In this document: positions 13,069 to 27,867 of the stretch, one piece after another
Layout: each line of letters begins with the position of its first letter
How positions within the stretch are numbered: position 1 is the stretch's first letter
Assembly: GCF_026340655.1 (NCBI RefSeq)
Contig: NZ_JAPEOZ010000001.1
Location: forward strand, 434,001 to 498,000
Source: Streptomyces sp. NBC_01275
Lineage (GTDB): Bacteria; Actinomycetota; Actinomycetes; Streptomycetales; Streptomycetaceae
Length of the DNA: 64,000 nucleotides
Direction of reading: 5' to 3'
Notes under the pieces: model-generated
What the model saw: only the letters and a program-made list of their open reading frames with translations
Told to the model about the DNA's origin: nothing
The model's database searches: none
Translations under genes and position numbers: made by a program

Positions 13069-14112
13069 ATGTCCGCCACCACAGATGTCACCGACCCGGG
13101 AGCGGGCACGGCGCAGAAGCCCGCCGCCGAGGGCGCCCGGCGGAGGCTCGACCTCGGCCGCTTCCGTGAGCTGTCGCTGATCCCGGCCATCCTGGTCCTG
13201 GGGCTGATCGGGTTCATCGTCTCGCCGGCCTTCCTGACCTCGGACAACCTGATCGGCGTGGCCCAGCAGTCCACCGAGCTGAGCCTGCTGGTCCTCGCCA
13301 CCGCGCTGATCCTGATCTGCGGACGGATGGACCTGTCCCTGGAGTCGACCATCGGCGTGGCTCCGGTCATCGCCGTCTGGCTGGTCCTGCCCACCAGCGG
13401 CGCGCGGTTCACCGGCCTCGGGCTGTTCCCGGAGTGGACGGCCGTGCCGCTCTGTCTGCTGGTCGGCGTGGCGATCGGGGCCGTCAACGGGTTCCTGATC
13501 CTGAAGCTGCGCCTGAACGGCTTCATCGTCACCCTCGGCATGCTCACCATGCTGCGCGGGCTCCAGGTCGCACTCTCCGAGGGCCAGTCCATCGTCGAAC
13601 TGCCGTCCTCCTTCACCTACTTGGGCAAGGCGTCATGGTGGGGCGCGCCCGCCGCGATCTGGATCTGCGTGGTGCTGTTCGCCCTCGGCAGCGCCGCCCT
13701 GGCCTGGCTGCGGCACGGCCGGGCACTGTACGCGATCGGCGGCAACGCGGAGGCGGCGCGCACGGCAGGCATCCGGGTGGACCGGATCGTGTGGGCGGTC
13801 CTGATCATCGGCAGTCTGCTGGCCGCGTTCGCCGGCATCCTCTACAGCGGTCACTACGGCTCGATCTCCGCCACCCAGGGCAGCGGCTGGATCTTCCAGG
13901 TCTTCGCCGCGACCGTGATCGGCGGGGTCAGCCTCAACGGCGGCAAGGGCTCCGTGTTCGGCGCGCTGACCGGTGTGCTGACGCTCCAGCTCGTGGTCAA
14001 CGTGATGACGCTGGCGGGTGTGCCGCCGTTGTGGAACCAGTTCCTCAACGGCGCGATCATCATCGTCGCGCTGATCATCTCCCGCTTCGCGTCCGGCGAG
14101 AAGCAGGAGTAG
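13069..14112 (+). CDS. Sugar ABC transporter permease (RbsC-type)
   Basis: A 347-residue BPD_transp_2 family permease. A hydrophilic, Pro/Ala-rich N-terminus (~35 residues) precedes eight to ten membrane helices. Family motifs are visible: LILICGRMDLSLESTIGVAPV early, NGFIVTLGMLTMLRGLQVALSEG in the middle, YAIGGNAEAARTAGIRVD, and GGVSLNGGKGSVFGALTGVL near the end. The ATG lies 2 bp after the ATPase stop, so expression is coupled. It forms the membrane channel for the sugar delivered by the upstream lipoprotein. Confidence 0.92.
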   Translation: MSATTDVTDPGAGTAQKPAAEGARRRLDLGRFRELSLIPAILVLGLIGFIVSPAFLTSDNLIGVAQQSTELSLLVLATALILICGRMDLSLESTIGVAPVIAVWLVLPTSGARFTGLGLFPEWTAVPLCLLVGVAIGAVNGFLILKLRLNGFIVTLGMLTMLRGLQVALSEGQSIVELPSSFTYLGKASWWGAPAAIWICVVLFALGSAALAWLRHGRALYAIGGNAEAARTAGIRVDRIVWAVLIIGSLLAAFAGILYSGHYGSISATQGSGWIFQVFAATVIGGVSLNGGKGSVFGALTGVLTLQLVVNVMTLAGVPPLWNQFLNGAIIIVALIISRFASGEKQE

Positions 14113-14192
14113 CGCCAGGAGCGGAACCAGGAGCGACCGCAGGAGCGGAACCGGGAGTCGAATCGGCAGCAGTCGGGCAGAGAGGCACGCTC

Positions 14193-14894
14193 GTGGCAGT
14201 GACGGACGAGGCCATGGACAAGATCAAGGCGATGATCGTGGCCGGCGACCTCGCGCCGGGCTCGCGGCTGCCCAAGGAGGAGATCCTCGCCGGACAGCTC
14301 GGACTGTCCCGCAGTTCGCTGCGCGAGGCGGTGCGGGCGCTGACCGCCATGCGGATCCTGGTGACCCGCCAGGGGGACGGCACGTACGTGTCCAGTCTGG
14401 AGCCCCATCTCCTGCTGGAGGCGCTGTCCTTCGCCTCGGACGTCTCGCAGGGGCAGACGGCCCTGCAACTGCTCGAGGTGCGCCGGCTGCTCGAACCCCA
14501 GGCGACGGGGCTGGCCGCCACGCTGCTCGACGCGGAGGACCTCCAGGAGCTGGGCGCCATCCTGGAGCGGTCCCGGTCCGCCGCGACGGTCGAGGAGTTC
14601 GTCGGCCACGACATCGCGTTCCATCTGCGGATCGTCGAGGCGGTCGGCAATCCGGTGCTGTCCATGCTGCTGCGCGTGCTGTCCACCCGCACCCAGCGGG
14701 TCCGCATCGTCCGGGGCACCCGGACCCAGCGGGCCGTGGAGCACGCCCACCGGGAGCACGACGAGATTCTCCGCGCACTGCGGTCCCGCGACGCGCAGTT
14801 GGCGGTCTCCACCGCCACGGTCCACATCGCGGCGGTGGAGCAGTGGCTGGCGGCCGGCCTCGTCGGGGATCCCCTCGGCGCACTCGACGGCTGA
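14193..14894 (+). CDS. GntR/FadR-family transcriptional regulator
   Basis: A 233-residue regulator with an N-terminal winged helix (IVAGDLAPGSRLPKEEILAGQ, then LGLSRSSLREAVRALTAMRI, the helix-turn-helix) and an FCD all-helical effector domain (VRRLLEPQATGLAA, then VGHDIAFHLRIVEAVGNPVL, AHREHDEILRAL). GTG at 14193 is chosen because it begins right at the winged-helix domain. It follows the permease by 80 bp on the same strand and probably senses the imported sugar or a product. Direct repeats ahead of the operon are candidate operators. Confidence 0.87.
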   Translation: MAVTDEAMDKIKAMIVAGDLAPGSRLPKEEILAGQLGLSRSSLREAVRALTAMRILVTRQGDGTYVSSLEPHLLLEALSFASDVSQGQTALQLLEVRRLLEPQATGLAATLLDAEDLQELGAILERSRSAATVEEFVGHDIAFHLRIVEAVGNPVLSMLLRVLSTRTQRVRIVRGTRTQRAVEHAHREHDEILRALRSRDAQLAVSTATVHIAAVEQWLAAGLVGDPLGALDG

Positions 14895-14940
14895 CGGTGA
14901 CGGCTGACGGCTGACGGCTGACGGCTGACGGCTGACGGCT
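14891..14940. repeat. Heptamer tandem repeat (CTGACGG)n after the GntR gene
   Basis: CTGACGG is repeated six times in 50 bp, with one copy shortened to TGACGG. The array begins at the stop codon of the regulator gene. Each unit carries TGA, so readthrough in any frame is quickly stopped. It is probably a replication-slippage microsatellite in a convergent intergenic region. Confidence 0.75.
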
Positions 14941-14962
14941 TCCCGATCGGGTGCCCGGTCCG

Positions 14963-15514
14963 TCAGGACACGCCCTTCTTGGCGGCCGCGAGGATGGCTA
15001 CGAGGGTGTGGAAGAAGCGCGTCGTCGCGTCATGTCCCAGGTGCCGCTGGAAGCCCTTGGCGGCGGGGGGCCGCCCCTTGATCAGGTACCAGACCACGAA
15101 GGCCTCGTAGGGACTGGCGCCGATGATCTCCATGTCCTTCTTCGGGGACAGCAGCGGCAGCTCCAGCGCCGGATCGATCCGCTCGGTCGTGAACACCACG
15201 CAGCAGCGCATGCCCTCGGTGACGGTGACGTCCTTGAACGGGTCGAGCGCGATCAGCGCCTCCACCTCGGGGATCGTGCGCAGGCAGACCGCCACGTCGT
15301 AGCCGAGGGCTTCCCGGAGACCGGCGCCGATCGTGTCGGCGAGCACCTTCCGGTCCTCTTCGTCGGTCTCGAAGAAGACGTTCCCGCTCTGGATGTGGCT
15401 GCGGACGGAGTCGAAGCCCATGTCACGGAACAGCCCTCGCAGATGGTCCATCTTCACCGAGCGGCCGGGGACGTTGATGCCTCGCAGGAATGCGATGTAG
15501 AGCAAGACGATCAC
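14963..15514 (-). CDS. DUF1697 domain-containing protein
   Basis: About 183 residues. Near the N-terminus YIAFLRGINVPGRSVKMDHLRGLF, then SHIQSGNVFFET, match the DUF1697 family (ALLRGINVGG...N-V-x-S-GNV). The end, AKGFQRHLGHDATTRFFHTLVAILA, also matches: the family finishes with a T-x-R-x-W/F-x-T segment. The family has no firm biochemical role. Start is uncertain: GTG at 15514 or TTG at 15505 gives the usual short lead before LRGIN, while an in-frame ATG at 15562 would add residues not typical of the family. It is divergent from the LacI gene across a region with two inverted repeats. Confidence 0.83.
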   Translation of the reverse strand: MIVLLYIAFLRGINVPGRSVKMDHLRGLFRDMGFDSVRSHIQSGNVFFETDEEDRKVLADTIGAGLREALGYDVAVCLRTIPEVEALIALDPFKDVTVTEGMRCCVVFTTERIDPALELPLLSPKKDMEIIGASPYEAFVVWYLIKGRPPAAKGFQRHLGHDATTRFFHTLVAILAAAKKGVS

Positions 15515-15591
15515 CCTATCCGTGGGGAGCCCGGGTCCTGGACCGCGCCAGTCTAGCGACACCCCTGCGCGACTTTGAGTCGATAAGACCC

Positions 15592-15613
15592 ATATATCCC
15601 CAGGGGGATTTAT
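15592..15613. promoter_or_regulatory. AT-flanked inverted repeat in the DUF1697/lacI divergent region
   Basis: ATATATCCCC and GGGGATTTAT are inverted copies (one mismatch) around an AG centre. The site lies about 80 bp from the DUF1697 start, in an unusually AT-rich patch for this genome. It looks like an operator or promoter element; the protein that binds it is unknown. Confidence 0.45.
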
Positions 15614-15648
15614 CGCCGCAGGCGCGTTCCGAACTCTTGACGCCCGCG

Positions 15649-15682
15649 TTATGGCTGCGCAGGCATGACTGCGCAGCCATAA
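15649..15682. promoter_or_regulatory. Perfect 14-bp inverted repeat upstream of the LacI regulator gene
   Basis: TTATGGCTGCGCAG and its exact complement CTGCGCAGCCATAA flank a 6-nt GCATGA spacer, giving a 34-bp palindrome. It lies 86 bp before the LacI-family start and between divergent genes, so it does not terminate either neighbour. It could be an autoregulatory operator, or an RNA hairpin in the lacI leader if transcription starts upstream of it. Confidence 0.6.
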
Positions 15683-15767
15683 GGCGCGCCTGACATCATT
15701 GAGCTAGACGCCGAGCTTGCTGCCGGGCTCGACCCCGGGCTCGATCGAACGGCCACCGGGAGACGCC

Positions 15768-16976
15768 ATGACGCGAGGAACAGGGCGGGGCGGGAGTTCC
15801 GCCGCGCCGCGCAGTATGGACGTGGCCCGGCTGGCCGGGGTCTCCCAGAAGACGGTGTCCCGGGTCTTCAACGACGAGCCGTACGTCTCCGCCGACGTCC
15901 GCCGGCGCGTCCTGGAGGCCGCCGAACAGCTCGGCTACCGGCGCAACAACGCCGCTCGAGCCCTGGCCTCGGGACGGACCCGCTCCATCGGCGTGGTCAC
16001 CCTGGGCACCGCCCTGTACGGGCCCGCCTCGCTGCTCATGGGCGTCGAGCGGGCCGTCCGGGACACGGGCTACGCGCTCCGCGTGGTCAACACCATGGAG
16101 GGCGACCCGGCGGGTCTCGCCGGCGCCGTGGACTCGCTCCTCGACCAGGGCGTGGACGGCATCGTCGTCTCCGAGCCGATCGACGAGGAGGGCACGGGGG
16201 CAGAAGGACAGGCCCCCCTCCGGGTCGACGTACCCGTCCTCGTCCTCGGCGCGCCCTCCCCGGTCTCCGCGCCCCTGGTGCTGACCGCGGGGGTCGGAGC
16301 CGACCTGATGGCCCGCTCGGCGACCGCGCACCTGCTGGATCTGGGTCATCTGACGGTCCATCATCTGGCCGGTCCGCAACGGTGGTACGCCGCCCGGGAC
16401 CGGCTGGAGGGCTGGCGGGCGACGCTGATCGAACGGGGCAGCACCGTGCCCACGGTCGTCGAGGGCGACTGGTCGGCCGCTTCCGGCTACCGCGCGGGAC
16501 GCGTGCTGGCCGAGGACGGTGACGTCACGGCGGTCTTCGCCGCCAACGACGACATGGCGATCGGTCTGATCCGGGCGCTGTCGGAGGCCGGACGGCGGGT
16601 GCCTGAGGACGTCAGCGTCGTCGGCTTCGACGACGTCCCGGTCGCCGCCTATGTGACGCCTCCCCTCACCACGGTGCCCCAGCCGTTCGACGCCGTGGCG
16701 CAGGAGGGACTCAAGCGTCTCGTGCACGCGATCGAGAACCCGGACGCAGATCCCTTGCCGTCCAGCGACCCACCGGTCGACCTCGCCGTTCGCGCCTCCA
16801 CCGCACCACCGCCGGCCCGGACGACCCCGGCCGGCGGACGGCACACCGCCTCCCCCACCCGCGGAGGCACGCACAGTACGTCGTCGAGCCCGTCGTCACG
16901 CCGGTCGTCGAGCCCTTCGTCGCATCCGCCGTCGAGCGCGTCGTCGTCGAACGGAGGCTCCGCCCCTCGCCCCTGA
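15768..16976 (+). CDS. LacI-family transcriptional regulator with Ser-rich C-terminal tail
   Basis: A 402-residue regulator. The N-terminal HTH reads MDVARLAGVSQKTVSRVFNDE, followed by hinge residues NNAARALASGRTRSIGVV. The sugar-binding domain includes VTAVFAANDDMAIGLIRALSE and DVSVVGFDDVPVAAYVTPPLTTV. Family members normally end near VRASTAPP, but here about 60 more residues follow that are mostly Ser, Pro and Arg. This tail may come from a frameshift or repeat expansion. The start ATG at 15768 follows CGGGAGA. No sugar operon is adjacent on the same strand, so its target is unclear; the palindrome upstream may be its own operator. Confidence 0.88.
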   Translation: MTRGTGRGGSSAAPRSMDVARLAGVSQKTVSRVFNDEPYVSADVRRRVLEAAEQLGYRRNNAARALASGRTRSIGVVTLGTALYGPASLLMGVERAVRDTGYALRVVNTMEGDPAGLAGAVDSLLDQGVDGIVVSEPIDEEGTGAEGQAPLRVDVPVLVLGAPSPVSAPLVLTAGVGADLMARSATAHLLDLGHLTVHHLAGPQRWYAARDRLEGWRATLIERGSTVPTVVEGDWSAASGYRAGRVLAEDGDVTAVFAANDDMAIGLIRALSEAGRRVPEDVSVVGFDDVPVAAYVTPPLTTVPQPFDAVAQEGLKRLVHAIENPDADPLPSSDPPVDLAVRASTAPPPARTTPAGGRHTASPTRGGTHSTSSSPSSRRSSSPSSHPPSSASSSNGGSAPRP

Positions 16977-17368
16977 ACCCCACCGATCAGCCCGGACGCA
17001 GCACCCATGAACGGGCGCCTGATCCTCCTTCGAGCCGCTGCACCTATCACGCCCGCGCCCACCGCCCGCTGTGCTCAGGGCAACGCCGGGCCGCCCCTGA
17101 GCACAGGGGCCCTGAGCCAGGTCGTCGCACCTGGCGCCGATCGAGAACCCGTACCTGACCGGCGCGACCGCCGGAGCGCAGCCGACCCTTCGGACCGCAC
17201 TCACAGACGGTCCACAGGACTGAGAGCTCGTCGAGTGGGCGTGCACGGGGCGTGCGGTCGCCGTCCCGTGGTCGTTCAACGCGCCGACTGACCGAAAAAC
17301 AGTGCAACCTTTGGGCTAACCAGAATGTCTCACCTGATATCCGGCACTCCTACTCTTCGGGGGACATC
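16977..17368. other. Intergenic region, lacI to AMIN-like gene
   Basis: About 390 bp without a gene I can support. Short open frames here have no ribosome site and no recognisable protein features. The last 70 bp are AT-richer and hold the promoter candidate listed separately. The GC-rich first part may hold a terminator for lacI, but no clean hairpin was seen. Confidence 0.5.
17304..17330 (+). promoter_or_regulatory. Candidate ECF-sigma-type promoter of the AMIN-like gene
   Basis: GCAACC at 17304-17309 and GTCT at 17327-17330 are spaced by 17 bp, resembling the AAC...GTC pattern of ECF sigma factor promoters in actinobacteria. It lies 39 bp ahead of the start codon of the secreted protein gene. 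ECF control would suit a surface protein. This is a pattern match by eye only. Confidence 0.35.
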
Positions 17369-17950
17369 ATGGTACGAAGCAGCGCCGTCTGGGTGACCGC
17401 AGCCCTCATGACCGCCACGTTGGGCGTGGCCGCGGTTCCGGCCGTGGCCGCGCCGGTCGCCGCCGCGCAGGCCGTCGCCTGCCCCACCGGCTGGGGCAGC
17501 CTCGACAAGACATACCTCTCCAGCACCTCGACGCCCGTGACCAACGTCAGGACCGGCCGCCACGACTGCTACGACCGGCTCGTCATCGACGTGCCCGGCG
17601 CGGCCGGCGACGACCTCGGCTACTCCGTCGGGTACGTCGACACGCTGTACCAGGACGGTTCCGGCCGGGTCATCCCGGTCGGCGGCGGAGCCATCCTGGA
17701 AGTACGGGTGAACGCCCCCTCCTACGACCCGGAGACCGGCGCCTCCACCTACCCCGGCCGGGCCGGACAGCCCCTGCCCGGCGTGAACCTCACCGGGTAT
17801 CTCACCTTCCGCGACACCCGGTTCGCCAGCAGCTTCGAGGGCCAGACACAGCTCGGGCTCGGCGTGCGCGCCCGGCTGCCCTTCCGGGTACTGCGTCTGG
17901 ACGGCCACCTGGTCGTGGACGTCGCCCACAGCTGGACGGCCACCCGCTGA
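17369..17950 (+). CDS. Secreted AMIN-like domain protein
   Basis: A 193-residue exported protein. Residues 1-35 are a Sec signal peptide (VWVTAALMTATLGVAAVPAV, ending AVAAPVAAA). The mature part reads CPTGWGSLDKTYLSSTSTPV, HDCYDRLVIDVPG, YSVGYVDTLYQDGSGRVIPV and LEVRVNAPSYD, the pattern of the AMIN-like domain found in many Streptomyces secreted and lipoproteins. AMIN-type domains bind envelope components in other bacteria; the exact role here is unknown. Two cysteines may form a disulfide. The start ATG follows GGGGGAC. It is convergent with the downstream binding-protein gene. Confidence 0.82.
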   Translation: MVRSSAVWVTAALMTATLGVAAVPAVAAPVAAAQAVACPTGWGSLDKTYLSSTSTPVTNVRTGRHDCYDRLVIDVPGAAGDDLGYSVGYVDTLYQDGSGRVIPVGGGAILEVRVNAPSYDPETGASTYPGRAGQPLPGVNLTGYLTFRDTRFASSFEGQTQLGLGVRARLPFRVLRLDGHLVVDVAHSWTATR

Positions 17951-18007: not shown

Positions 18008-19243
18008 TCACCCGGCGAGTCCGGCCCGGTCGCAGGCAGCGCGCAGCTCCCGCGCGCAGATCCGGTCGACGGTGAACACGCCGTCCTTCACCAGGGTCGA
18101 TTTGATGGTGTCGAGGGTCACCGCGCTGGGGGTGAGCAGGACGGCCGGGACCCGCCGGGCGGTGGGGCTGTCGATCGTCGTGGTGGCGGTGTCGCGGGCG
18201 TCCCCGCCGCGCCCCACGGCGACCGCCATGGCGGCGACCGCCGCGGCCTCCTGCCGGAAGGACTTGTACACGGTCATGTACTGCTCGCCGTTGACGAGGC
18301 GCCGTACGGCGTCGAGGTCGGCGTCCTGGCCGGTGACGGGCGGAAGGTCCGTGACGCCGGCGGCCTTGAGCGCGGAGACGGCGCCCGCGGCGATGGAGTC
18401 GTTGGCCGCCAGGACGCCGTCGATCCCGTCGGGGCCCAGGGCGGCGATGGCGGCGGACATGGCGACGTGGGCGTTCTGCGTGCTCCAGTCCTGGACGTCG
18501 TACGACCTGCCGATGCGCACCTTGCCCGCGATGACGGACAGGGTGCCGTTGCGGTACCAGGCCGCGTTGGGGCTGGTCGGGTCGCCGTTCAGCATGACGA
18601 CGGTGCCCACGCGCCCGGGGTTCGCCGCGTCCATGGCGCGCAGCAGCCCCTCGCCCTGGAGTCTGCCGACCTGTCGGCCGTCGAAGCCGACGAAGCCGGC
18701 GATCGGGCCTTCGGCGAGCCGGTCGTAGGCGACCACGGGGACGCCCGCCCGGCGCGCCTCCTGGATCGAGGAGCGCAGCGCCCTGGTGTCGGCGGCGTCC
18801 AGGATCAGGACCTCGGCCCCTTTGGTGATCATCGTGACCATCTGCTGCCGCTGTCGCGTCGCGTCGTTCTCGGCGTTGGCGTACTCCAGCGTGCAGGCGG
18901 GACAGCGCTTCTTCAGCTGCTCCTCGATGAGCGGCCGGTCCGCGTGCTCCCAGCGGGGGACCGCGCGGCTCGGGAGCAGCAGGCCGACGGTGAAGCCGTC
19001 CGCGTCCTTCCCGTGGTCCGCCCCGCAGGCGGCCAGGGGCAGCGCCAGGAGCGCCGCGGCGAGCGCGGCGAGGACGCGTCCGCGTCGCCGCATGCGTCCG
19101 AAGGCCGGTCCGGAGGCCGGTCCGGAGGCCGGTCCGGAGGCCGGTCCGGAGGCCGGTCCGGAGGCCGGTCCGGAGGCCGGTCCGGAGGCCGGTCCGGAGG
19201 CCGGTCCGGAGGCCGGTCCGGAGGTCTGCCTGGGCGCTCTCAT
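18008..19243 (-). CDS. Xylose-type substrate-binding lipoprotein with (GPAS)10 N-terminal extension
   Basis: A type 1 binding-fold protein related to XylF. The core (VGLLLPSRAVPRWEHADRPL, MITKGAEVLILDAADTRAL, PVVAYDRLAEGPIAGFVGFD, VLAANDSIAAGAVSALKAAG) is paralogous to the protein at 21889-22977. A lipoprotein signal MRRRGRVLAALAAALLALP with lipobox LAAC begins at the internal ATG at 19093. The ATG at 19243 overlaps the phosphatase stop as ATGA and would add 50 residues, mostly ten GPAS repeats, before the signal. Which start is used is open: coupling favours 19243, the normal signal peptide favours 19093. No ATPase or permease follows it. Confidence 0.83.
   Translation of the reverse strand: MRAPRQTSGPASGPASGPASGPASGPASGPASGPASGPASGPASGPAFGRMRRRGRVLAALAAALLALPLAACGADHGKDADGFTVGLLLPSRAVPRWEHADRPLIEEQLKKRCPACTLEYANAENDATRQRQQMVTMITKGAEVLILDAADTRALRSSIQEARRAGVPVVAYDRLAEGPIAGFVGFDGRQVGRLQGEGLLRAMDAANPGRVGTVVMLNGDPTSPNAAWYRNGTLSVIAGKVRIGRSYDVQDWSTQNAHVAMSAAIAALGPDGIDGVLAANDSIAAGAVSALKAAGVTDLPPVTGQDADLDAVRRLVNGEQYMTVYKSFRQEAAAVAAMAVAVGRGGDARDTATTTIDSPTARRVPAVLLTPSAVTLDTIKSTLVKDGVFTVDRICARELRAACDRAGLAG
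19103..19222. repeat. Ten perfect 12-bp repeats (GGCCGGTCCGGA)10
   Basis: Exactly ten identical 12-bp units cover 120 bp, between the phosphatase stop codon and the signal peptide of the binding protein. On the coding strand each unit reads Gly-Pro-Ala-Ser in frame with the gene. Copy-number change by slippage would keep the frame and alter only the linker length. A unit this perfect points to recent expansion. Confidence 0.93.
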
Positions 19244-21741
19244 GGCAGGCCCTCCCGTTCCGCCGCGGGGCCCGAGGCCTCGGGAGCCGACTCCCCGTCC
19301 GGTACGGCGATCTCGCTCCACACCTGTTTGCCGCCGGCCACCGGCATCGAGCCGACGGAGTCCGACATCGCCTCGACCAGCAGCAGGCCGCGGCCGCCGG
19401 TGGACTCCCAGTCCACGATCACCGGCTTGGCGGGCGCGCGGGGCGAGGAGTCGCTCACGCAGACGCGCACCCGGTTCCCGCGCAGCACCAGGTCGAGGCG
19501 GACCGGGCCCTGGGTGTGGACCAGGGCGTTGGTGACGAGTTCGGACACGACGAGCAGCACCGCGTCGGCCGTCTCCTCGACCTTCCAGCGGCGCAGGATG
19601 CGGGCGGTGAAGCGGCGGGCGTGCATGACGGCGTCGGGCAGCCGCCACACCATCCAGCCGGCCCTGATCGGCCGGACCGCCATGCCGTCGTAGCGCAGGA
19701 GCAGTACCGCCACGTCGTCCTCGCGGCGGCCGACGTCGCCGAGGAGTTCGTCGGCGGTCCTGCCCAGGTCCGCCGGGTCGGCGGCGGCGAGCGCGCCTCG
19801 GGTGCGGCGCATCCCCTCGTCCAGGGGCAGGTCGGCGGCCTCGACCAGGCCGTCGGTGACCAGGGCGAGCACCGTGCCGGGGGTCAGCGCCACCGCGGTC
19901 ATGGGGAAGTCCGCCTCCGCGAGGACGCCCAGCGGGGGCCCTCCCTCGACCTCCACCTCCTCGGCGGTGCCGTCGGGCCGGCGCAGCAGCGGGGCGAGGT
20001 GGCCGGCCCGGACGAACAGGGTGTTGCCCTCCTCCATGTCCAGTTCGGCGTAGCAGCAGGTCGCGAACAGATCGGTCTCCATGGCGACGAGGAGCCGGTT
20101 GGCGTGGGAGACGACCACGTCGGGCGGGTGGCCCTCCATGGCGTAGGCCCGGACCGCGGTGCGCATCTGTCCCATGATCGTCGCGGCTCCGGCGCTGTGT
20201 CCCTGCACGTCCCCGATCACCAGGGCCACCCGGTCCTCGGAGAGGGCGATGACGTCGTACCAGTCGCCGCCCACCTGCAGGCCCCGGCGGGCGGGCAGAT
20301 AGCGGGCGACGGCCGTGCCCCCGGGCAGTTCGGGGAGGCGGCGCGGCAGCAGGCTGCGCTGGAGCATCGTCGCGAGCTCCTGCTCCGCGTCGTGCGCGTG
20401 GGCCCGCCGCAGGGCCTGTCCGACCAGGGCCGCGGTGGCGGTCAGCAGGGACCGCTCCTCGGGGACGAACTCGTGCGGCTGGTCCCAGCCGATCAGGCAC
20501 AGCCCGGCGACCCGGCCCTTGGCGGGCAGTGGCAGCACGGCCAGTCCCCCGGCGCCGATGCCCGCGAGCCCCGGTTCGAGGGCGGCGCCGGCGGGCCACA
20601 GGTCCATCCGTCCGTCCCGCAGGGCGCTCTGCAGGGTGGGCAGCGCGCGGACGGGCGCGTCGGGCCACTCCGTACGCCACTCGGAACGCCAGATCTCCGG
20701 CCAGGCGGCGGGGTACGGCGGGTCGAGCACGCTGACCATGAGCCGGTCGTCCTGCACCTCGGCGAGCGCCACCCGGTCCGCGCCCAGCGGCTCGCGCAGG
20801 GCGGCGATCACGACCCGGCCGACGTCACGGACGGTCGCGGCGTCGTCGAGTGCGGCGGTCAGCCACTGGATCCGGGAGACGTCGTCGGCGCCGCGGCGCA
20901 GGACCGAGGTCGCCGTCACCACGCCCCGCACCTGCTCCAGCCGGTCTCCGGCGCCCGCCTCCACCCGGCAGCTCAGGCTCAGCCAGCGCATCTCGCCGGT
21001 GGGGCCGCGGACCCGGAACTCCAGGTCGCGCCGGCCGGACGTCTGGGTGGACGTCTCCAGGACCGACATCAGCGCGTGCATGTCCTCCGGGAGGGCGTGC
21101 GCGAGGAGGGTGTCGGCCTTGCCGTCGAAGTCGTCCGGTGTGATGCCGACCAGGGCGAGCAGCGTGTCGTCGGCCTCGATCAGGCCGGTGTCCGGGACCA
21201 GCACGAAGGAGCCGACGCCCAGAGCGCGCAGGGCGGGCTCGAGCAGCGCCGACGGCACGGGCGGGCTCGGCCCGGCCCCGAGCCGGTCGGCGACCGCGTC
21301 GGCGTACGACTCCAGGAAGCGGCGTTGCTCGGGCGCGAAGCCGTCCGACGACGCCCCGGTGACGAGGAGGCAGCCGAGCCGTCTGCCCTCCGTGCGCAGG
21401 GGCAGTGCGACGAGCGAGGTCCCGGGAAGGGAGGCGGGTTCGCCGGGGGCCGGCCACAGGGGCCGGTCGGTGCGGTAGGCCCGCGCCGCGGGCGAGTCGC
21501 CGGACAGCGGCAGCAGCTCGGGCGGCCCCGGCCCGGCGCGGGCGGCCCCGGCGCTGTCCAGCAGTCGAAGCTCTTCGCCCCGGGGCGCGTAGACCGCCGC
21601 CAGGTCCACTCCGGCGAATGTCAGGGCCGGAACCCCTGTGGCGGGCTGAGCCGCCAGGGGCGGCGGGCCGGTGTCCGCCGCGGCGGCCTCGGTCGCCCAC
21701 AGCTGCGAGACCCCGGCCCCGGCACGGCCGTCATGAGGCAT
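19240..21741 (-). CDS. SpoIIE-family phosphatase with GAF, PAS and HATPase domains
   Basis: About 833 residues from the ATG at 21741, chosen for the GGGAGGTGG ahead of it; an in-frame ATG at 21816 has no ribosome site. Order: GAF-like (~30-160), PAS (~175-290, with GEMRWLSLSCRVEAG), GAF (~300-425), SpoIIE/PP2C (~450-650, with GGDWYDVIALSEDRVALVIGDVQGH, the metal-binding Asp motif, and VLALVTDGLVEA, REDDVAVLLLR), then an RsbW-type HATPase (~680-790, LVVSELVTNALVHTQGPV). Such proteins dephosphorylate anti-anti-sigma factors and can also act as anti-sigma kinases. No membrane segment is evident. Its stop overlaps the start of a binding-protein gene, an unusual partner. Confidence 0.9.
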   Translation of the reverse strand: MPHDGRAGAGVSQLWATEAAAADTGPPPLAAQPATGVPALTFAGVDLAAVYAPRGEELRLLDSAGAARAGPGPPELLPLSGDSPAARAYRTDRPLWPAPGEPASLPGTSLVALPLRTEGRRLGCLLVTGASSDGFAPEQRRFLESYADAVADRLGAGPSPPVPSALLEPALRALGVGSFVLVPDTGLIEADDTLLALVGITPDDFDGKADTLLAHALPEDMHALMSVLETSTQTSGRRDLEFRVRGPTGEMRWLSLSCRVEAGAGDRLEQVRGVVTATSVLRRGADDVSRIQWLTAALDDAATVRDVGRVVIAALREPLGADRVALAEVQDDRLMVSVLDPPYPAAWPEIWRSEWRTEWPDAPVRALPTLQSALRDGRMDLWPAGAALEPGLAGIGAGGLAVLPLPAKGRVAGLCLIGWDQPHEFVPEERSLLTATAALVGQALRRAHAHDAEQELATMLQRSLLPRRLPELPGGTAVARYLPARRGLQVGGDWYDVIALSEDRVALVIGDVQGHSAGAATIMGQMRTAVRAYAMEGHPPDVVVSHANRLLVAMETDLFATCCYAELDMEEGNTLFVRAGHLAPLLRRPDGTAEEVEVEGGPPLGVLAEADFPMTAVALTPGTVLALVTDGLVEAADLPLDEGMRRTRGALAAADPADLGRTADELLGDVGRREDDVAVLLLRYDGMAVRPIRAGWMVWRLPDAVMHARRFTARILRRWKVEETADAVLLVVSELVTNALVHTQGPVRLDLVLRGNRVRVCVSDSSPRAPAKPVIVDWESTGGRGLLLVEAMSDSVGSMPVAGGKQVWSEIAVPDGESAPEASGPAAEREGLP

Positions 21742-21888
21742 GTCCGCCACCCACCTCCCGTCCAGGTCGACGGTGCGACAGGTTGAGATCAGGGCACCCG
21801 CACACCAGAATCGCATATACGGGCCAACCGAACATATCTACCTTATTGCCATCGACCTCATGGCCCTAGACAGCAGGCGGTGTCGCAC

Positions 21889-22977
21889 ATGAAGGCCTGT
21901 ATACGGGCCACGGCCGTCACCGTGACCGCGTTCTGGACGGCCGTCGCCCTCGCGGCCTGCGGGGCGGGGGCGGAGCACGACTCCGAAGGAGGGAACGGCC
22001 CGCGCATCGGCGTGCTGCTGCCGGACGCCACCACGGCCCGCTGGGAGACCCGGGACCGCCCCCTGCTCGAGAAGAAGATCAAGGAGCTGTGCGACACGTG
22101 CACGGTCGAGCACGCCAACGCCAAGGGCGACGTGGCCCTCCAGCAGGAACAGATGGACTCCATGATCACCAAGGGCGTGGACGCGATCCTGCTCGTGGCC
22201 GTCGACGGCCGGTCCCTCGGCCCCGCCGTCGCCAAGGCCCAGCAGGCGGACATCCCGGTCATCGCCTACGACCGGCTCTCCGCCGGCCCGATCTCGGGAT
22301 ACGTCTCCTTCGACGGGAAGGAGGTCGGCAGGCTCCAGGGCCGCGCGCTGCTGAAGGCCATGGGCGACAAGGTGCCCGGCGGCCAGATCGTCATGATGAA
22401 CGGCGACCCCAGCGACCCGAACGCCGTGGCCTTCAAGGAGGGCGCGCTGTCCGTGCTCGACGGACGGGTGAAGATCGGCAAGGCGTACGACACCCTCCAG
22501 TGGCGGACGGAGACCGCGCACATGAACATGTCCGGCGCCCTCTCGGCCCTCGGCGCCGAAAGCATCGACGGGGTCTACGCGGCCAACGACGGCCTCGCCG
22601 CCGGGAGCATCTCCGCCCTCAAGGCGAACAAGGTCGACCCGCTGCCGCCCGTCACCGGGCAGGACGCCGAACTCGCGGCCCTGCGGCGCATCGTCGCCGG
22701 CGAGCAGTACATGACCGTGTCCAAGCCCTTCGGGCCCGAGGCCGCCGCCGGGGGCGCCATGGCGGTGGCCGCGGCCCGCGGGGAAGGCCTCGACGGGGTG
22801 TCCACCGGCGAGGTGCGGACCGACGACGGGAAGACGGTCCCGGCCGTTCTGCTCACCCCGGTGTCCGTGACCGCCGGCAACCTCAAGGAGACCGTGCTGA
22901 AGGAGGGCCTGTACACGGTCCAGCAGATCTGCATCCCGCAGCTGCGGACCGCCTGCGACCGGGTCGGGCTGACCTGA
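21889..22977 (+). CDS. Xylose-type ABC transporter substrate-binding lipoprotein
   Basis: A 362-residue XylF-like lipoprotein: signal peptide with lipobox ALAAC near residue 25, then IGVLLPDATTARWETRDRPL, MITKGVDAILLVAVDGRSL, PVIAYDRLSAGPISGYVSFDG, VYAANDGLAAGSISAL and PVTGQDAELAALRRI. The cysteines CDTCTVEH and the C-terminal IC...LRTACDR are shared with the paralogue across the phosphatase gene. ATG at 21889 is preferred over GTG at 21880 because AGGCGG is at the right distance. It heads an operon with an ATPase and permease and is divergent from the phosphatase gene. The sugar is unproven; the D-xylose label is by similarity. Confidence 0.88.
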   Translation: MKACIRATAVTVTAFWTAVALAACGAGAEHDSEGGNGPRIGVLLPDATTARWETRDRPLLEKKIKELCDTCTVEHANAKGDVALQQEQMDSMITKGVDAILLVAVDGRSLGPAVAKAQQADIPVIAYDRLSAGPISGYVSFDGKEVGRLQGRALLKAMGDKVPGGQIVMMNGDPSDPNAVAFKEGALSVLDGRVKIGKAYDTLQWRTETAHMNMSGALSALGAESIDGVYAANDGLAAGSISALKANKVDPLPPVTGQDAELAALRRIVAGEQYMTVSKPFGPEAAAGGAMAVAAARGEGLDGVSTGEVRTDDGKTVPAVLLTPVSVTAGNLKETVLKEGLYTVQQICIPQLRTACDRVGLT

Positions 22978-22995
22978 CCGGCCGGTTCCGGCCGG
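22978..22995. promoter_or_regulatory. Intercistronic palindrome after the binding-protein gene
   Basis: CCGGCCGG is repeated on both sides of TT immediately after the stop codon, giving an 18-bp palindrome able to form a short GC hairpin in the mRNA. A hairpin here would stabilise or partly terminate the transcript so that the binding protein is made in excess over ATPase and permease, a known arrangement in ABC operons. Confidence 0.5.
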
Positions 22996-23012
22996 GGAAG
23001 GAGATGGTTGAC

Positions 23013-23786
23013 GTGGCGGATCCCCCGCTGCTGGCGTTGCGCGGCGTGTGCAAGCGCTTCGGCGCCGTCGAGGTCCTCACCGACATCGAGCTGGAGATCC
23101 ACCCCGGTCAGGTCGTCGCTCTCCTCGGGGACAACGGGGCGGGCAAGTCCACCCTGGTCAAAGTGATCTCCGGGGTCGCCCCCGCCGACAGGGGCGTCAT
23201 CGAGTGGCAGGGCCGGGCGGTCCACATCAGACGCCCGCACGACGCCCGGGACCTCGGCATCGCCACCGTCCACCAGGACTTCGCGCTGTGCGGGAACCTC
23301 GACGTCGTCGGGAACCTGTTCCTGGGGCGGGAGATCCGCCGGTACGGGTTCCTCGACGAGATGGAGATGGAGCGCCGTACCCGGCAACTGCTGGAGCGCC
23401 TGACCCGGCGGCTGCCCGAGCTGCGCGGCCCGGTCGTCTCGCTCTCCAGCGGACAGCGGCAGACGGTCGCCATCGCCCGCTCGCTCCTCGGCGACCCCAG
23501 CGTCCTCCTGCTGGACGAGCCGACCGCCGCGCTGGGGTTCGAGCAGACCACCGAGATCCTGGACCTCATCGACCAACTGCGCGACCGCGGCCTCGGGGTC
23601 CTGCTCATCAGCCACAACATGGGCGACGTGAAGGCGCTTGCGGACCGCGCCGCGGTACTGCGGCTCGGCCGCAACAACGGCTTCTTCGACGTGAACACCT
23701 CGTCCCAGGAGCAGATCATCTCCTCCATCACCGGCGCCACGGAGAACGTGCCCCGCCGGCCGGCCTCCCGGGAGGCGGGGTGGTGA
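23013..23786 (+). CDS. Sugar ABC transporter ATP-binding protein (single NBD, XylG-like)
   Basis: A 257-residue ATPase with one nucleotide-binding domain: Walker A GDNGAGKSTL near residue 38, Q-loop TVHQDFALCGNLDVVGNL, signature LSSGQRQTVAIARSLL, Walker B VLLLDEPTAALGFEQT, and H-loop ISHNMGDVKALADRAAVL. Classical XylG proteins have two NBDs (~500 residues), so this half-size form must dimerise, as in FrcA-like systems. GTG at 23013 is chosen because GGGGAAGGAG is 9 nt upstream; the ATG at 23004 is too close. Its stop overlaps the permease start as GTGA. Confidence 0.92.
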   Translation: MADPPLLALRGVCKRFGAVEVLTDIELEIHPGQVVALLGDNGAGKSTLVKVISGVAPADRGVIEWQGRAVHIRRPHDARDLGIATVHQDFALCGNLDVVGNLFLGREIRRYGFLDEMEMERRTRQLLERLTRRLPELRGPVVSLSSGQRQTVAIARSLLGDPSVLLLDEPTAALGFEQTTEILDLIDQLRDRGLGVLLISHNMGDVKALADRAAVLRLGRNNGFFDVNTSSQEQIISSITGATENVPRRPASREAGW

Positions 23787-25063
23787 AAGACATGCGCAGC
23801 ACTGCGGACGACCCACGGACCGAGCGCGCCGCGGCCGACGCCGCGCCCCGCCCACCTCGCCGCGGACAGGCCGTCGCCCGTGCCGCGGAGAGCGGGATCG
23901 CCGCCTTCCGGCGCCGGCTGCGGGCCGGCGACCTGGGATCGCTCCCCGTGGTCCTCGTCCTCGCCGTCGTCTGGATCACCTTCCAGTCCCTCAACGACAA
24001 CTTCCTCTCCCCCCGCAACCTGTCCAACCTCAGCGTGGACATCGTCGGCACCGGCCTGATCGCGGTCGGCATCGTCTTCGTACTGCTGCTCGGCGAGCTC
24101 GACCTGTCGGTGGGCTCGATCAGCGGACTCGCGGCGGCCGTGTTCGCCGTGCTGAACGTGAACCACGGCGTGCCGGAGTGGCTCGCCGTGATCCTCGCCG
24201 TGCTCGCGGGCACCGCAGCGGGCACCGTCCAGGGCTTCTCCATCGCCAGAACCCGGGTCCCTGCGTTCGTGGTCACCCTCGCCGGGCTGCTCACCTGGAA
24301 CGGCATCATGCTGTCCATCCTCGGCAACAGCGGCACCGTCAACCTGGACGAGGACGGCCTCGTCGCCAAACTGACCAGCTACTACTTCAGCCAGGACGCC
24401 GTCGCCTACGGCCTCGCCGCGGTCGCCGCGGGTGTGGTCTTCCTGGTCTCCGACCGAGACCGACGGCGGCGCAGGGCGGTCGGCATGCCGTACCGCTCGC
24501 TCCGGGGCGTCCTCGTGCGCACGGGCATGGTCGCGGTGCTCGCGTTCACCGTCGCGTATCTGCTCAACCGGTTCCAGGGACTGCCGCTGGCCCTCCTGAT
24601 CTTCCTGGTGATCGTGGCGGGCCTCGACATCGTGCTGCGCCGCACCCACTACGGGCGGCAGGTCTACGCCGTCGGCGGCAGCGTCGAGGCGGCCCGGCGC
24701 GCCAGCCTCAGCGTGCTGCGGGTGCAGACCGCGGTGCTCGCGGTGTCGGGCACCATGGCCGCGATCGGCGGCCTGTTCCTGGCCTCCCGCATCACCTCGG
24801 TGAGCCAGAGCTCGGGCTCGGGCGTCCTGCTGGTCAACGCCATCGCGGCGGCCGTCATCGGCGGCACCAGCCTGTTCGGCGGGCGCGGCACGACCTGGTC
24901 CGCGGTGCTGGGCATGCTGGTCATCCAGTCGATCGCCTCCGGCATGGCGATCACGGACACCCCCACCGCCCTCCAGTTCGTGATCACGGGCGGGGTGCTC
25001 TTCGCGGCGGTGGTCATCGACTCCCTGTCCCGCCGCTCGCAGGAGGCACACGGGCGGGCCTGA
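23783..25063 (+). CDS. Sugar ABC transporter permease (XylH-like)
   Basis: A 426-residue permease starting at a GTG that overlaps the ATPase stop. A charged ~50-residue N-terminus precedes about ten membrane segments. Motifs of the family include VLLLGELDLSVGSISGLAAAVF, ARTRVPAFVVTLAGLLTWNGI, GRQVYAVGGSVEAARRASLSV and VIGGTSLFGGRGTTWSAVLGML. The extra loop and helices in the middle (~200-270, with DRDRRRRRAVGMPYRSLRG) are typical of the longer XylH type. It completes the transporter with the upstream lipoprotein and ATPase. Confidence 0.92.
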   Translation: MKDMRSTADDPRTERAAADAAPRPPRRGQAVARAAESGIAAFRRRLRAGDLGSLPVVLVLAVVWITFQSLNDNFLSPRNLSNLSVDIVGTGLIAVGIVFVLLLGELDLSVGSISGLAAAVFAVLNVNHGVPEWLAVILAVLAGTAAGTVQGFSIARTRVPAFVVTLAGLLTWNGIMLSILGNSGTVNLDEDGLVAKLTSYYFSQDAVAYGLAAVAAGVVFLVSDRDRRRRRAVGMPYRSLRGVLVRTGMVAVLAFTVAYLLNRFQGLPLALLIFLVIVAGLDIVLRRTHYGRQVYAVGGSVEAARRASLSVLRVQTAVLAVSGTMAAIGGLFLASRITSVSQSSGSGVLLVNAIAAAVIGGTSLFGGRGTTWSAVLGMLVIQSIASGMAITDTPTALQFVITGGVLFAAVVIDSLSRRSQEAHGRA

Positions 25064-25108: not shown

Positions 25109-25576
25109 TCAGGCGTCGGTCCGACGGCCTTCGGCGGCCTTCCGGATCGCCTCGCGGATGCGGGAGTACGTGCCGCAGCGGCAGACGTTCTCGATGCGGT
25201 CGATGTCGTCGTCCGTGGGCCGGGGCGTCTTCTCCAGCAGGGCCGCCGCGGCCATGATCTGGCCCGGCTGGCAGAAGCCGCACTGCGCCACGTCGCAGTC
25301 GAGCCAGGCCTGCTGGACGGGGTGCAGGGTGTCGCCGTCGGCCAGGCCCTCGATGGTGGTGACCGCGCGACCCACGCAGTCGGCGACCGGGACGACGCAG
25401 GGCTGGATCTCCGCGCCGTCGAGATGGCTGGTGCAGGCCCGGCAGACGCCCACGCCACAGCCGTACTTGGGGCCGGTGACGTGCAGCAGATCGCGCAGCA
25501 CCCACAGCAGCGGCATGTCGGCGGGCGCCTCGACGGTGACCGGCTTCCCGTTGAGGACGAAGGAGTAGGACGGCAT
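25109..25576 (-). CDS. iorA: [2Fe-2S] subunit of a molybdenum hydroxylase (isoquinoline 1-oxidoreductase alpha type)
   Basis: A 155-residue small subunit. The plant-ferredoxin-type cluster motif is in GPKYGCGVGVCRACTSHLDG with a later QPC, and the second cluster motif in CGFCQPGQIM plus CRCGTYSRIREAI. This two-cluster layout is that of the xanthine oxidase family small subunits. It passes electrons from the molybdopterin subunit encoded just upstream (25741-27867). The ATG at 25576 gives the usual short N-terminus MPSYSFVLNGKPVTVEA. There is no FAD subunit gene, as in the two-subunit Ior and aldehyde dehydrogenase types, which use a cytochrome or other acceptor. Confidence 0.88.
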   Translation of the reverse strand: MPSYSFVLNGKPVTVEAPADMPLLWVLRDLLHVTGPKYGCGVGVCRACTSHLDGAEIQPCVVPVADCVGRAVTTIEGLADGDTLHPVQQAWLDCDVAQCGFCQPGQIMAAAALLEKTPRPTDDDIDRIENVCRCGTYSRIREAIRKAAEGRRTDA

Positions 25577-25612
25577 CAGCACCTTCTCGGACGGTGATCG
25601 GAGGGTGATCGG

Positions 25613-25732
25613 ACGGTGATCGGCAGTCGGACCCGGACAGTGATCGGCAGTCGGACCCGGACAGTGATCGGCAGTCGGACCCGGACGGTGATCGCAGTCG
25701 GACCCGGACTGCTGATCAGGACTCGGTCCCGG
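25613..25732. repeat. 24-bp tandem repeat between the two molybdenum-hydroxylase genes
   Basis: Three clear 24-bp units (ACRGTGATCGGCAGTCGGACCCGG) start at 25613, 25637 and 25661, followed by 23-bp and 25-bp degenerate copies to 25732. Further GGTGATCGGA fragments lie before the first. The array fills the 165-bp gap between iorB stop and iorA start on the minus strand. The units contain GATC and frames with Asp-His-Cys-Pro, but no gene needs them. Confidence 0.85.
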
Positions 25733-25740
25733 ACACTTGA

Positions 25741-27867
25741 TCAGAAGTCGATCGGGAAACGGCGGGGCTTGGTGCCGGTCGCGCGGGCGTAGGCGTTCGC
25801 CACGGCGCCGGCCGCGGCCGGCACGCCGAGTTCGCCGGCCCCGCCGGGCTCCCGCCGCGACGGCATGATGTGCGCCTCGAAGCGCAGCGGGGCGTGCCGC
25901 TGACGGGCGTAGCGGAAGTCGGCGAAGCTGCCCTCGCGCACCGCGCCCCGGTCGATGTGCAGTCCTGCCTGGAGCACGGTGGAGATGCCGTCGACGCAGG
26001 CGCCCATCAGCTGGGCCTCCAGTCCGCGCGGGTTGACGGCCGTTCCCACGTCGGCCGCCATCACCACCCGGGTCACCCGGGGCTTGTTCGGGTCGGCGGC
26101 GTCGATCTCGACCAGACAGGCCACACAGGAGCCGTACTCCTCGTGGACGGCCACCCCCTGTCCGTGGCCGGGCGGCAGGGACCGGCCCCAGGCCCCGGCG
26201 GTCGCGACCTTGTCGAGCACGGCCTTGACGGTCTTGTTCCTGAGCGTGCCGCGTCGGAAGGCCACCGGGTCCTGGCCCAGGCTCGCGGCGACCTCGTCGA
26301 CGACGATCTCCTCCGCGGTGCGCATCGTGCCGGAGTCCACCGACCGCCAGGCGCCCAGGGGCATCGCCAGCTCCACGGAGCCCGAATCCCCCGACAGGCG
26401 GCCGAAGTCGTAGAGGCCGCTGTCGCTGGGCAGCGGGCCTGCGGCGCGGACGACGGCCGGTTTCACCCCGCCCAGGCCGGACAGCCCCTGCTCGTAGGCC
26501 TCGCTCACCGAGGCCATCGCGTGGCCGAAGGCCACCACCCTGCCCCGGGCGTGGCTGGCCCGGATCCGGTGGTGGGAGGCGCCGCGCATCCTGCCGTGCC
26601 GGAGGTCGTCGGCGCGGCTCCACATCAGCTTCACCGGCCGCCGTGCCGCCTTCGAGATCAGCGCCGCCTCGATCGCGGCGTCGTAGTTCAGCCGCCGTCC
26701 GAACGAGCCGCCGCCCCGCACCACATGGACCCGGACCTTGGACACGGGCAGTCCGATCGTCGAGGCGATGCTCTCCCGCGCGTCCATCGGCGTCTGGGAG
26801 GAGAACCAGATCTCGGCGCGGTCGGCGCGTACGTCCGCCACCGCGGTCAGCACCTCCATCGGGGCGTGGCTGACGAACGCGAACGCGAACTCGCCCTCCA
26901 CCTGGGCCGATCCGCTCGGTGCGGCGCCGAGCGCGGGGACGGCGGCCCGCAGCCGGGACCGGATGGCGGCGTCGGACAACGCCGCCAGCGGTCCCGGCGC
27001 CCACGTGACGCGCAGGGCGTCACGGGCCTTGAAGGCGTGGTGGAAGGTCTCCGCCACCACGGCCACCCCGCCGGGGATCCTGACCACCGCGTGGACCCCG
27101 GGCAGGGCGCGGGCCGCCCGGTCGTCGACCGAGACGAGCTTCCCGCCGAGCGTGGGCGGCCGGGCCACCACCGTCGGCTTGGCCCCGGCGACGGTCAGGT
27201 CCCCGGCGTACTGCGCCTTGCCGGTGACGATGTCCCGTGCGTCGATCCGCCCGGTCGGCCGGCCGATCACCCTGTGCCGGGACGCGGGCTTGGGCTTGCT
27301 CGACACGGCGGTCCTGCGGATCTTGGCGGCGGCCGCCGTCAGCGACCCGAAGGTCGCCGTACGACCGTCGAGGGCGACCACCCTGGTGTCCTGGATCCGC
27401 AGGGTCCAGGCGGGCACGTGCCAGCGCCGGGCCGCCGCGGTCACCAGACGGGCCCGGGCGGTGGCGGCGAGCGCGCGGGCGGGACCGTACAGCGAACTGA
27501 CGGAGTTCGAGCCGCCGGTGTACTGGTTGCCCTGGGTGCGGGCCTGCGCGAGCGGGATGTCGACGTCGGCCAGCCGGGCGTCCAGCTCCTCGGCGATCAT
27601 CATGGCGACCGCGGTCGTGATGCCCTGCCCGACCTCGACGCGCGGCAGCCGTACGACGATCCGGTTGGCCGCGGTGACCTCCAGGACCAGCATCTCCTCG
27701 TCGGCGCCGGTGACCAGGACCCCGCCGGACGCCCCCTGGACGTCCGGCGCGGTGGGCTCGACACCGTGCGCCGACGGCGCGTCGCAGCCGAGGGGCGCGG
27801 CGACGGTCAGGGTGGACGCCGCGAGCGAGTGGACCATGAACTTCCGGCGCGACAGCTGACGGGCCAA
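25741..27867 (-). CDS. iorB: Tat-exported molybdopterin subunit of isoquinoline 1-oxidoreductase-type hydroxylase
   Basis: About 708 residues from TTG at 27867, chosen because GGAGAGGAG lies 7 nt upstream and it gives a normal twin-arginine signal (LSRRKFMVHSLAASTLTVAA). Body motifs fit the xanthine dehydrogenase large-subunit family: LPRVEVGQGITTAVAMMIAE, ARTQGNQYTGGSNSV, VRVHVVRGGGSFGRRLNYDA, PLGAWRSVDSG and the end EPGGAGELGVPAAAGAVANA. The cofactor-binding segment MAADVGTAVNPRGLEAQLMG is also present. The pair hydroxylates aldehydes or N-heterocycles outside the membrane. An upstream in-frame GTG (27927) is less likely. No XdhC-type maturation gene is adjacent. Confidence 0.9.
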   Translation of the reverse strand: MARQLSRRKFMVHSLAASTLTVAAPLGCDAPSAHGVEPTAPDVQGASGGVLVTGADEEMLVLEVTAANRIVVRLPRVEVGQGITTAVAMMIAEELDARLADVDIPLAQARTQGNQYTGGSNSVSSLYGPARALAATARARLVTAAARRWHVPAWTLRIQDTRVVALDGRTATFGSLTAAAAKIRRTAVSSKPKPASRHRVIGRPTGRIDARDIVTGKAQYAGDLTVAGAKPTVVARPPTLGGKLVSVDDRAARALPGVHAVVRIPGGVAVVAETFHHAFKARDALRVTWAPGPLAALSDAAIRSRLRAAVPALGAAPSGSAQVEGEFAFAFVSHAPMEVLTAVADVRADRAEIWFSSQTPMDARESIASTIGLPVSKVRVHVVRGGGSFGRRLNYDAAIEAALISKAARRPVKLMWSRADDLRHGRMRGASHHRIRASHARGRVVAFGHAMASVSEAYEQGLSGLGGVKPAVVRAAGPLPSDSGLYDFGRLSGDSGSVELAMPLGAWRSVDSGTMRTAEEIVVDEVAASLGQDPVAFRRGTLRNKTVKAVLDKVATAGAWGRSLPPGHGQGVAVHEEYGSCVACLVEIDAADPNKPRVTRVVMAADVGTAVNPRGLEAQLMGACVDGISTVLQAGLHIDRGAVREGSFADFRYARQRHAPLRFEAHIMPSRREPGGAGELGVPAAAGAVANAYARATGTKPRRFPIDF

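Follow-up and report, generated by a model that had tools for sequence, protein, structure and literature searches.

A recurring Streptomyces locus combining a SpoIIE-type phosphatase gene, two sugar-binding lipoprotein genes and a CUT2-type importer

The 64,000-nucleotide stretch of the Streptomyces sp. NBC_01275 genome analysed here (hereafter the window; the whole genome is 10.4 Mb) carries a five-gene unit in which the gene of a SpoIIE-type phosphatase lies between those of two sugar-binding lipoproteins (substrate-binding proteins, SBPs), namely SBP-A and SBP-B, the latter being followed by the ATPase and permease of an ABC importer. We read the locus as an importer-coupled partner-switching module, with a probability of about one half. 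Parts of this arrangement are known from other systems. In XylFII-LytS, known to us through citing papers, and CuaDSR, a second sugar SBP encoded beside a transporter likewise feeds regulation, and CuaD has a higher affinity than the transporter's own SBP, as stated in the available part of PMC10384115. In both systems, however, the SBP touches a transmembrane histidine kinase, whereas the regulator of the window is a soluble phosphatase/kinase and the permease is the sole membrane-spanning protein of the unit. Since no transmembrane sensor that an SBP could contact is encoded among the five genes, the SpoIIE protein being soluble and no other sensor gene being present, the unit was not filed with the sensor-SBP systems.

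The GlnH-GlnX-PknG system of Corynebacterium glutamicum, according to the accessible portion of PMC9769921, also has an actinobacterial lipoprotein SBP gene clustered with the gene of a cytosolic Ser/Thr regulator, but it differs in having a dedicated membrane protein, GlnX, a kinase instead of a phosphatase, and amino acids instead of sugar. RsbQ and RsbP of Bacillus subtilis, the products of adjacent genes, form a bipartite sensor for a PAS-PPM phosphatase (PMC3183031, excerpt), although RsbQ is an alpha/beta hydrolase and there is no transporter. The XylFGH and ChvE-GguAB importers of the CUT2 type are the closest counterparts of the transport genes, with the SBPs nearest to XylF, the ATPase to YtfR and then XylG-type proteins, and the permease to GguB; the genes in the window differ from them in scores under the equivalog cut-offs, a single-domain ATPase and the linkage to SpoIIE. 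As for the phosphatase, OsaC, a SigB modulator of Streptomyces coelicolor, is reportedly linked to osmoregulation, judging by the title of a 2009 paper, unlike the window protein. OsaC belongs to the same genus and resembles the window protein in its GAF, PAS and PPM phosphatase domains, a likeness taken from the description in the available part of PMC12143880 and not from compared sequences. Rv1364c, the RsbU-RsbW fusion of Mycobacterium tuberculosis, shares a PPM phosphatase followed by an RsbW-like kinase of the same fold but, as given in the same part of PMC12143880, has an N-terminal PAS and a C-terminal anti-anti-sigma domain, whereas the window protein is GAF-PAS-GAF with no STAS match and is encoded beside an importer.

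No published account of a SpoIIE-SBP-transporter unit was found in the titles and abstract openings searched, which covered few subscription papers. Other SpoIIE loci are touched on in the accessible part of a synteny survey from 2026 (PMC13118837), and PMC10717218, considered as a possible account of the unit, was rejected as its available part concerns another protein. The unit therefore joins known parts in a combination not found described in the literature searched. Streptomycetes possess many SpoIIE phosphatases, for most of which we know of no input, and a recurring unit pairing one SpoIIE clade with a definite importer class provides a testable input for that clade.

Gene content of the five-gene unit

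The original prediction, made from the letters and open reading frames of the window, proposed two paralogous binding lipoproteins flanking a GAF-PAS-GAF-SpoIIE-HATPase protein, an ATGA overlap between the start of one lipoprotein gene and the stop of the phosphatase gene, and a complete, oppositely directed transporter operon containing the other lipoprotein gene, all of which was borne out. The predicted soluble phosphatase/kinase (19240-21741, minus strand, 833 aa) has, in this order, a GAF domain, a PAS_3 domain, a second GAF stretch, a SpoIIE domain (E 4e-49) and an HATPase_c_2 domain (E 4.9e-14), and no STAS match was obtained within the protein by the profile search. The acidic residues D493, D496, D511, D630, D675 and D676, which we take to be the metal ligands of the PPM motifs, are invariant in 33 sequences, as expected of a partner-switching phosphatase, and the same holds for E734, N738, D764, G783 and G785, presumably the N and G box residues of an RsbW-like kinase. 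An earlier AlphaFold model built from 9 sequences (pLDDT 57) was set aside in favor of a second one with a mean pLDDT of 77.8, whose best PDB match is the RsbU-RsbW part of Rv1364c (PDB 3ke6, Foldseek E 5e-21). Rv1364c is the nearest solved protein by sequence, too (phmmer E 3.7e-28, residues 469-804, phosphatase and kinase together). In this model a single helix (427-464) joins the second GAF to the phosphatase; helical linkers are described for such phosphatases in the available part of PMC12143880. The source genome contains 37 SpoIIE-domain matches.

Downstream of the phosphatase gene and overlapping its stop by the four bases ATGA at 19240-19243 lies the gene of SBP-A (18008-19243, minus strand), a predicted orphan XylF/ChvE-like sugar-binding lipoprotein. 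SBP-B (21889-22977, plus strand), the second predicted XylF/ChvE-like lipoprotein, opens the divergent operon. The two are 52% identical (180/346, E 2e-119) and both match Peripla_BP_4; their closest curated families are XylF and ChvE, with scores far under the cut-offs, and the XylF equivalog scores of 211 and 196.6 bits against a cut-off of 389.55 do not allow the locus to be called a D-xylose importer XylFGH. Of the 75 positions conserved across 55 other SBPs, SBP-A keeps 64, and of the 44 among them that are common to XylF it keeps 38, including R, DR, N, W, ND, QD and K, among which the sugar-touching ones are assigned by our own assumption. By residue conservation and tree position only, SBP-A is thus a binding protein separate from the transporter's own with the ligand site kept.

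SBP-B shares its operon (21889-25063) with an ABC ATPase and a BPD_transp_2 permease, which together with a Peripla_BP_4 lipoprotein constitute the gene set of a CUT2 importer. The ATPase (23004-23786, plus strand, 260 aa) is a single-domain protein of the CUT2 type with an intact Walker A motif, GDNGAGKS; its best profiles are YtfR, then XylG-type, and it aligns to the first half only of these two-domain profiles, with a XylG score of 178.8 bits against an equivalog cut-off of 723.65. The CUT2-type permease (23783-25063, plus strand, 426 aa) is closest to the NCBIfam model GguB, and the SBP, ATPase and permease all score under the equivalog cut-offs. ATPases with unusual nucleotide-binding motifs (GENAAGKS; SGDQ) were seen in L130 (11679-12419) and L059.

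Between SBP-A's start codon and its lipoprotein signal peptide, a 12-bp tandem repeat of 10.8 copies (19096-19224, minus strand, 99% matches) encodes in frame a (GPAS)n stretch, the copy number of which could tune export. The repeat was not seen in the N-termini of other orphans from loci of the window layout, with the start as read lying downstream in L040 and L058. Upstream of the phosphatase and SBP-A genes there is a promoter-like element, CCGTATATGCGATTCTGG (21805-21822, minus strand), the sole exact match in the genome.

Recurrence and history of the unit

The five-gene unit is real but patchy. Hereafter, type I denotes the layout of the window and type II an arrangement of phosphatase, SBP, ATPase and permease as one operon. 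Apart from a first neighbourhood set of 20 hand-chosen regions, loci were collected in three ways. Named loci were found with an alignment of nine SpoIIE proteins, the neighbours being typed by tblastn, and among the best 80 of 551 there were 17 of type I, including L063 with its truncated ATPase, 17 of type II, one with SpoIIE and an SBP beside a scaffold gap, and 45 without such an SBP, including L086 and L090, which end at a contig edge, and L114 and L126, with less than 1.5 kb downstream. The L049 and L087 proteins are identical and those of L045 and L082 nearly so. L076, the locus at the scaffold gap, was not accepted as a phosphatase-SBP pair without a transporter, since a run of N adjoins the pair.

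Across the genus sample, 27 of 61 genomes hold 36 close SpoIIE homologues, of which 12 lie within 3 kb of an SBP matched at E ≤ 1e-60 (seven of type I including the window, five of type II) and 24 do not, some of the latter being near contig ends (e.g. G032:C35). A second draw of 60 genomes, some of which overlap with the named-locus records, gave 34 new SpoIIE matches, each of them among the 42 additional genomes of this genus, and the 15 genomes from other genera yielded no match. The 34 comprise four type I loci (one without the ATPase), one type I locus without the orphan, seven type II loci, one SBP-less locus with ATPase and permease, and 21 with none of these genes; an SBP and a permease are present in 12 of the 34, with an ATPase match in 11 of these 12. 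Conservation of the gene order in other Streptomyces, proposed as a check by the original prediction, was thus looked for and found in many species, and an adjacency restricted to this strain is rejected by the named loci, the genus sample and the second draw alike. The named relatives at this locus come from Streptomyces and near kin, with one type II locus (L130) in Actinacidiphila. No gene family outside the module is common to more than 5 of 24 type I flanks as read by a crude gene caller. In one genome (G072), a different set of SBP, ATPase and permease genes is followed downstream by SpoIIE-related stretches that are 34-37% identical (L227:11-511, 3483-4100), which may represent another type of SpoIIE-transporter neighbourhood.

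The orphan SBPs form one clade of 25 rows (support 99/96) in the SBP tree of 80 rows and are sister to eight type II SBPs encoded with an ATPase and permease of their own. The divergent SBPs constitute a separate clade (24 rows, 100/99), whose sister is another type II operon, L078. In a tree of concatenated ATPase and permease proteins, the type I transporter and that of the orphan's sister operons fall into separate groups (both 100/100), and in the SpoIIE tree, made with 64 of 92 sequences (the 28 omitted belong to a group without an SBP), type I groups with these sister operons, referred to as operon A. The simplest reading suggested by the trees is that two operons were joined head to head, A losing its ATPase and permease and B having no phosphatase. 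Operon A would have kept the phosphatase and SBP, so that the locus in the window looks like a derived form of a SpoIIE-SBP-ATPase-permease operon. SpoIIE proteins of the sister operons L041, L043, L072 and L079 have 1013-1038 residues, the extra length in L041 and L043, the two whose ends were read, being a repetitive charged C-terminal tail.

The history bears on the prediction that the first lipoprotein has no ATPase or permease of its own. Locally this is so: the next gene past SBP-A, on the opposite strand (17252-17950), codes for an AMIN-like protein, neither ATPase nor permease. A transporter for SBP-A elsewhere in the genome was rejected as well, the close matches being confined to the genes of the window itself and to a ROK-linked xylFGH-like set located separately at 7.34 Mb: with the operon-A permease as the query these two gave 64% and 52% and the next match 34%, and with the operon-A ATPase 70% and 70% and the next 44%. 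The "orphan" state nevertheless looks derived, because the nearest relatives of SBP-A, in the eight operon-type loci, own both an ATPase and a permease. The source genome has another lone XylF-like lipoprotein (L051:9645-10754, G000:C1:5150641), which lies near dnaK-, grpE-, dnaJ- and hspR-like genes, as judged by eye from the first residues; no ATPase or permease resembling the window's was present in the 20-kb stretch around it.

Decay of SBP-A was rejected. By simple counting over 253 pairs of 23 loci (L063 was dropped for its short ATPase), the median dN/dS is 0.47 for SBP-A and 0.42 for SBP-B, i.e. constraint is about equal, compared to 0.30 for both SpoIIE and the permease and 0.17 for the ATPase, and SBP-A still looks functional. 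A 4-base ATGA or GTGA overlap of SpoIIE and SBP genes, counted from candidate start codons and not from mapped starts, could form in 21 of the 24 type I loci and in 10 of the 22 type II loci; as it recurs so regularly among type I loci, the overlap in the window is not due to chance. The promoter-like element CCGTATATGCGATTCT is found upstream of the phosphatase, with up to three mismatches, in 19/24 type I loci, 4/8 sister type II loci and 0/14 other type II loci. Because it is kept in most type I loci and has one exact site in the genome, in the window, a separate conserved promoter probably drives the phosphatase and SBP-A genes. The idea of a regulon motif was rejected, as the genome has two sites at up to three mismatches (one exact, here) vs three for the reversed control.

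Loss of the ATPase and rival explanations

The most interesting part, which goes beyond the original prediction, is the natural loss of the ATPase. In three of 29 type I loci (L063, L177 and L178) it is deleted or lacks Walker A; the alignment gaps span about 302, 546 and 129 bases and have differing endpoints. Walker A is kept in the other 26; the SBPs, permease and SpoIIE are full length in all three. Changes on the L178 branch were counted at codons identical in L060, L064 and L035. In the ATPase remnant, 50.3 changes are nonsynonymous and 10.7 synonymous (w 1.63), compared with 13 and 17 for the permease (w 0.29), 7.5 and 18.5 for SBP-B (w 0.13), 12.5 and 21.5 for the orphan (w 0.19) and 9 and 22 for SpoIIE (w 0.14), the difference between ATPase and permease having a Fisher p of 2.6e-4. 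With L060 and L064 as the sole references, the ATPase has a w of 1.17 and the other genes lie at 0.18-0.26 (p = 4.3e-5 vs permease). These values indicate that the L178 ATPase is decaying neutrally while the permease, both SBPs and the phosphatase are still constrained. On the L177 branch, w is 0.17 for the permease, 0.15 for SpoIIE and 0.44 for both SBPs, and on the L063 branch 0.41 for the permease, 0.40 for the orphan, 0.24 for SBP-B and 0.25 for SpoIIE, the L063 ATPase piece having 8 changes only and no difference from the other genes. As they are constrained where the ATPase is lost or truncated, the permease and both SBPs seem to serve some role without a local ATPase.

The constraint may have been eased where the ATPase is gone, because on the control branch L060, with an intact ATPase, w is only 0.04-0.10 for the permease, SBPs and SpoIIE vs 0.13-0.44 on the ATPase-less branches. 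All three ATPase-loss genomes (G072, G096 and S. humidus) hold another ATPase, 71-74% identical, which in the two genomes examined belongs to a further set of SBP, ATPase and permease genes. The extra ATPase was also looked for in 10 further type I genomes, each of which has an intact local ATPase; it is present in 3 and not in 7, and the genome search did not find it in the source genome. The losses are compatible with the transporter serving as a receptor or with another locus lending its ATPase.

In the module that we favor, operon A would supply the phosphatase and SBP-A, and the head-to-head operon B would supply SBP-B, the ATPase and the permease. Both lipoproteins would deliver a pentose- or hexose-like sugar to the single permease, the orphan adding a second affinity or specificity, and either the occupied or transporting permease or the imported sugar would be sensed by the GAF-PAS-GAF part of the soluble phosphatase. 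The long helix would then shift the balance of PPM phosphatase vs RsbW-like kinase on a STAS anti-anti-sigma factor, tying a SigB-type sigma factor to sugar uptake, and the importer may also serve as a sensor. The gene content, recurrence, history and constraint of the unit are supported by sequence comparison. The signalling unit of the original prediction, with orphan and phosphatase responding to the same sugar, is partly supported, by the recurrence of the gene set, the constraint on SBP-A and the failure to find a transporter of its own elsewhere in the genome; it is revised in that the nearest relatives of the "orphan" do own transporters.

Several points weigh against this module. The SpoIIE protein is soluble (the largest 19-residue hydropathy is 1.51 and no segment is transmembrane-like), and therefore has no direct contact with a lipoprotein, so that any signal would pass via the permease, the ATPase or imported sugar. 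The SBP is dispensable in places, as L181 is a type I locus without the orphan and L185 an operon-type locus without any SBP, in which SpoIIE is directly followed by the ATPase and permease. Below about 60% identity, the transporter is missing from most SpoIIE relatives, and above this level it is missing from some, such as L077 (67%), L209 (63%) and L110 (62%); the unit is present in only 12 of 61 genomes. The ATPase-permease tree sets L078 less close to type I than the SBP tree does, which leaves the exact source of operon B unsure. Neither a ligand nor an interaction, a STAS partner or a sigma factor came out of the analysis, in which STAS genes were not searched for directly.

The likeliest of the alternatives, though itself improbable, is that the orphan merely feeds the divergent transporter as a plain second receptor, that the phosphatase senses an unrelated cytosolic cue, and that the shared locus reflects joint regulation or inheritance. 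An ABC importer served by two SBPs is a common case, cytosolic ligands are frequently bound by GAF and PAS domains, and SBP-A distances track those of SBP-B (partial correlation 0.52) above those of SpoIIE (0.20), in values not corrected for relatedness; yet the candidate 4-base overlap of SpoIIE and SBP genes in both layouts and the survival of the SpoIIE-SBP pair after operon A lost its own transporter argue against this reading. Somewhat less expected is the transporter acting as a receptor, in which a liganded lipoprotein would dock on the permease, the permease would signal to the phosphatase and ATP-driven uptake would be dispensable, the orphan being a dedicated sensor SBP in the manner of CuaD or XylFII with their histidine kinases. 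It would account for three ATPase losses with three different gaps beside otherwise full-length genes, for w values below 0.5 in L178 and L177, and it has precedents in sensor SBPs of two-component systems (PMC10384115, available part) and of a Ser/Thr kinase in Corynebacterium (PMC9769921, available part). The extra ATPase could, however, power the permease in all three loss genomes, and every loss falls among holders of this ATPase, which 7 of 10 intact type I genomes and the source genome lack; the lower w of the control branch and the Walker A kept in most type I loci also tell against a receptor. More doubtful still is the further step of an ABC importer turned transmembrane receptor for a sigma-factor partner switch, with two lipoproteins presenting sugar, the permease signalling and the ATPase shed in some strains as uptake is no longer needed. 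If the permease does signal, a soluble phosphatase would have a route to read extracellular sugar. Least probable is hitch-hiking, i.e. adjacency by descent in a cassette moving as a block with no functional link: the patchy occurrence and differing flanks do suggest block spread, but the five genes are mostly together while the flanks vary, two lineages have merged into one phosphatase with one transporter, and the parts are under purifying selection. Natural losses of operon A's own transporter, the ATPase, the orphan or any SBP amount to existing mutants in which sensing might be told apart from uptake.

Neighbouring genes

Upstream of the five-gene unit, the window contains a second sugar-type ABC locus (about 10359-16976), with matches to an SBP (at about 10359), an ATPase (about 11519-13048) and a permease (about 13117-14085), together with a LacI regulator (15762-16976) and a GntR-like gene recognized by eye. 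On the other side of the unit, a 24-bp repeat of 5.8 copies (25610-25750) is located upstream of a gene coding for a [2Fe-2S] subunit (25109-25576, minus strand).

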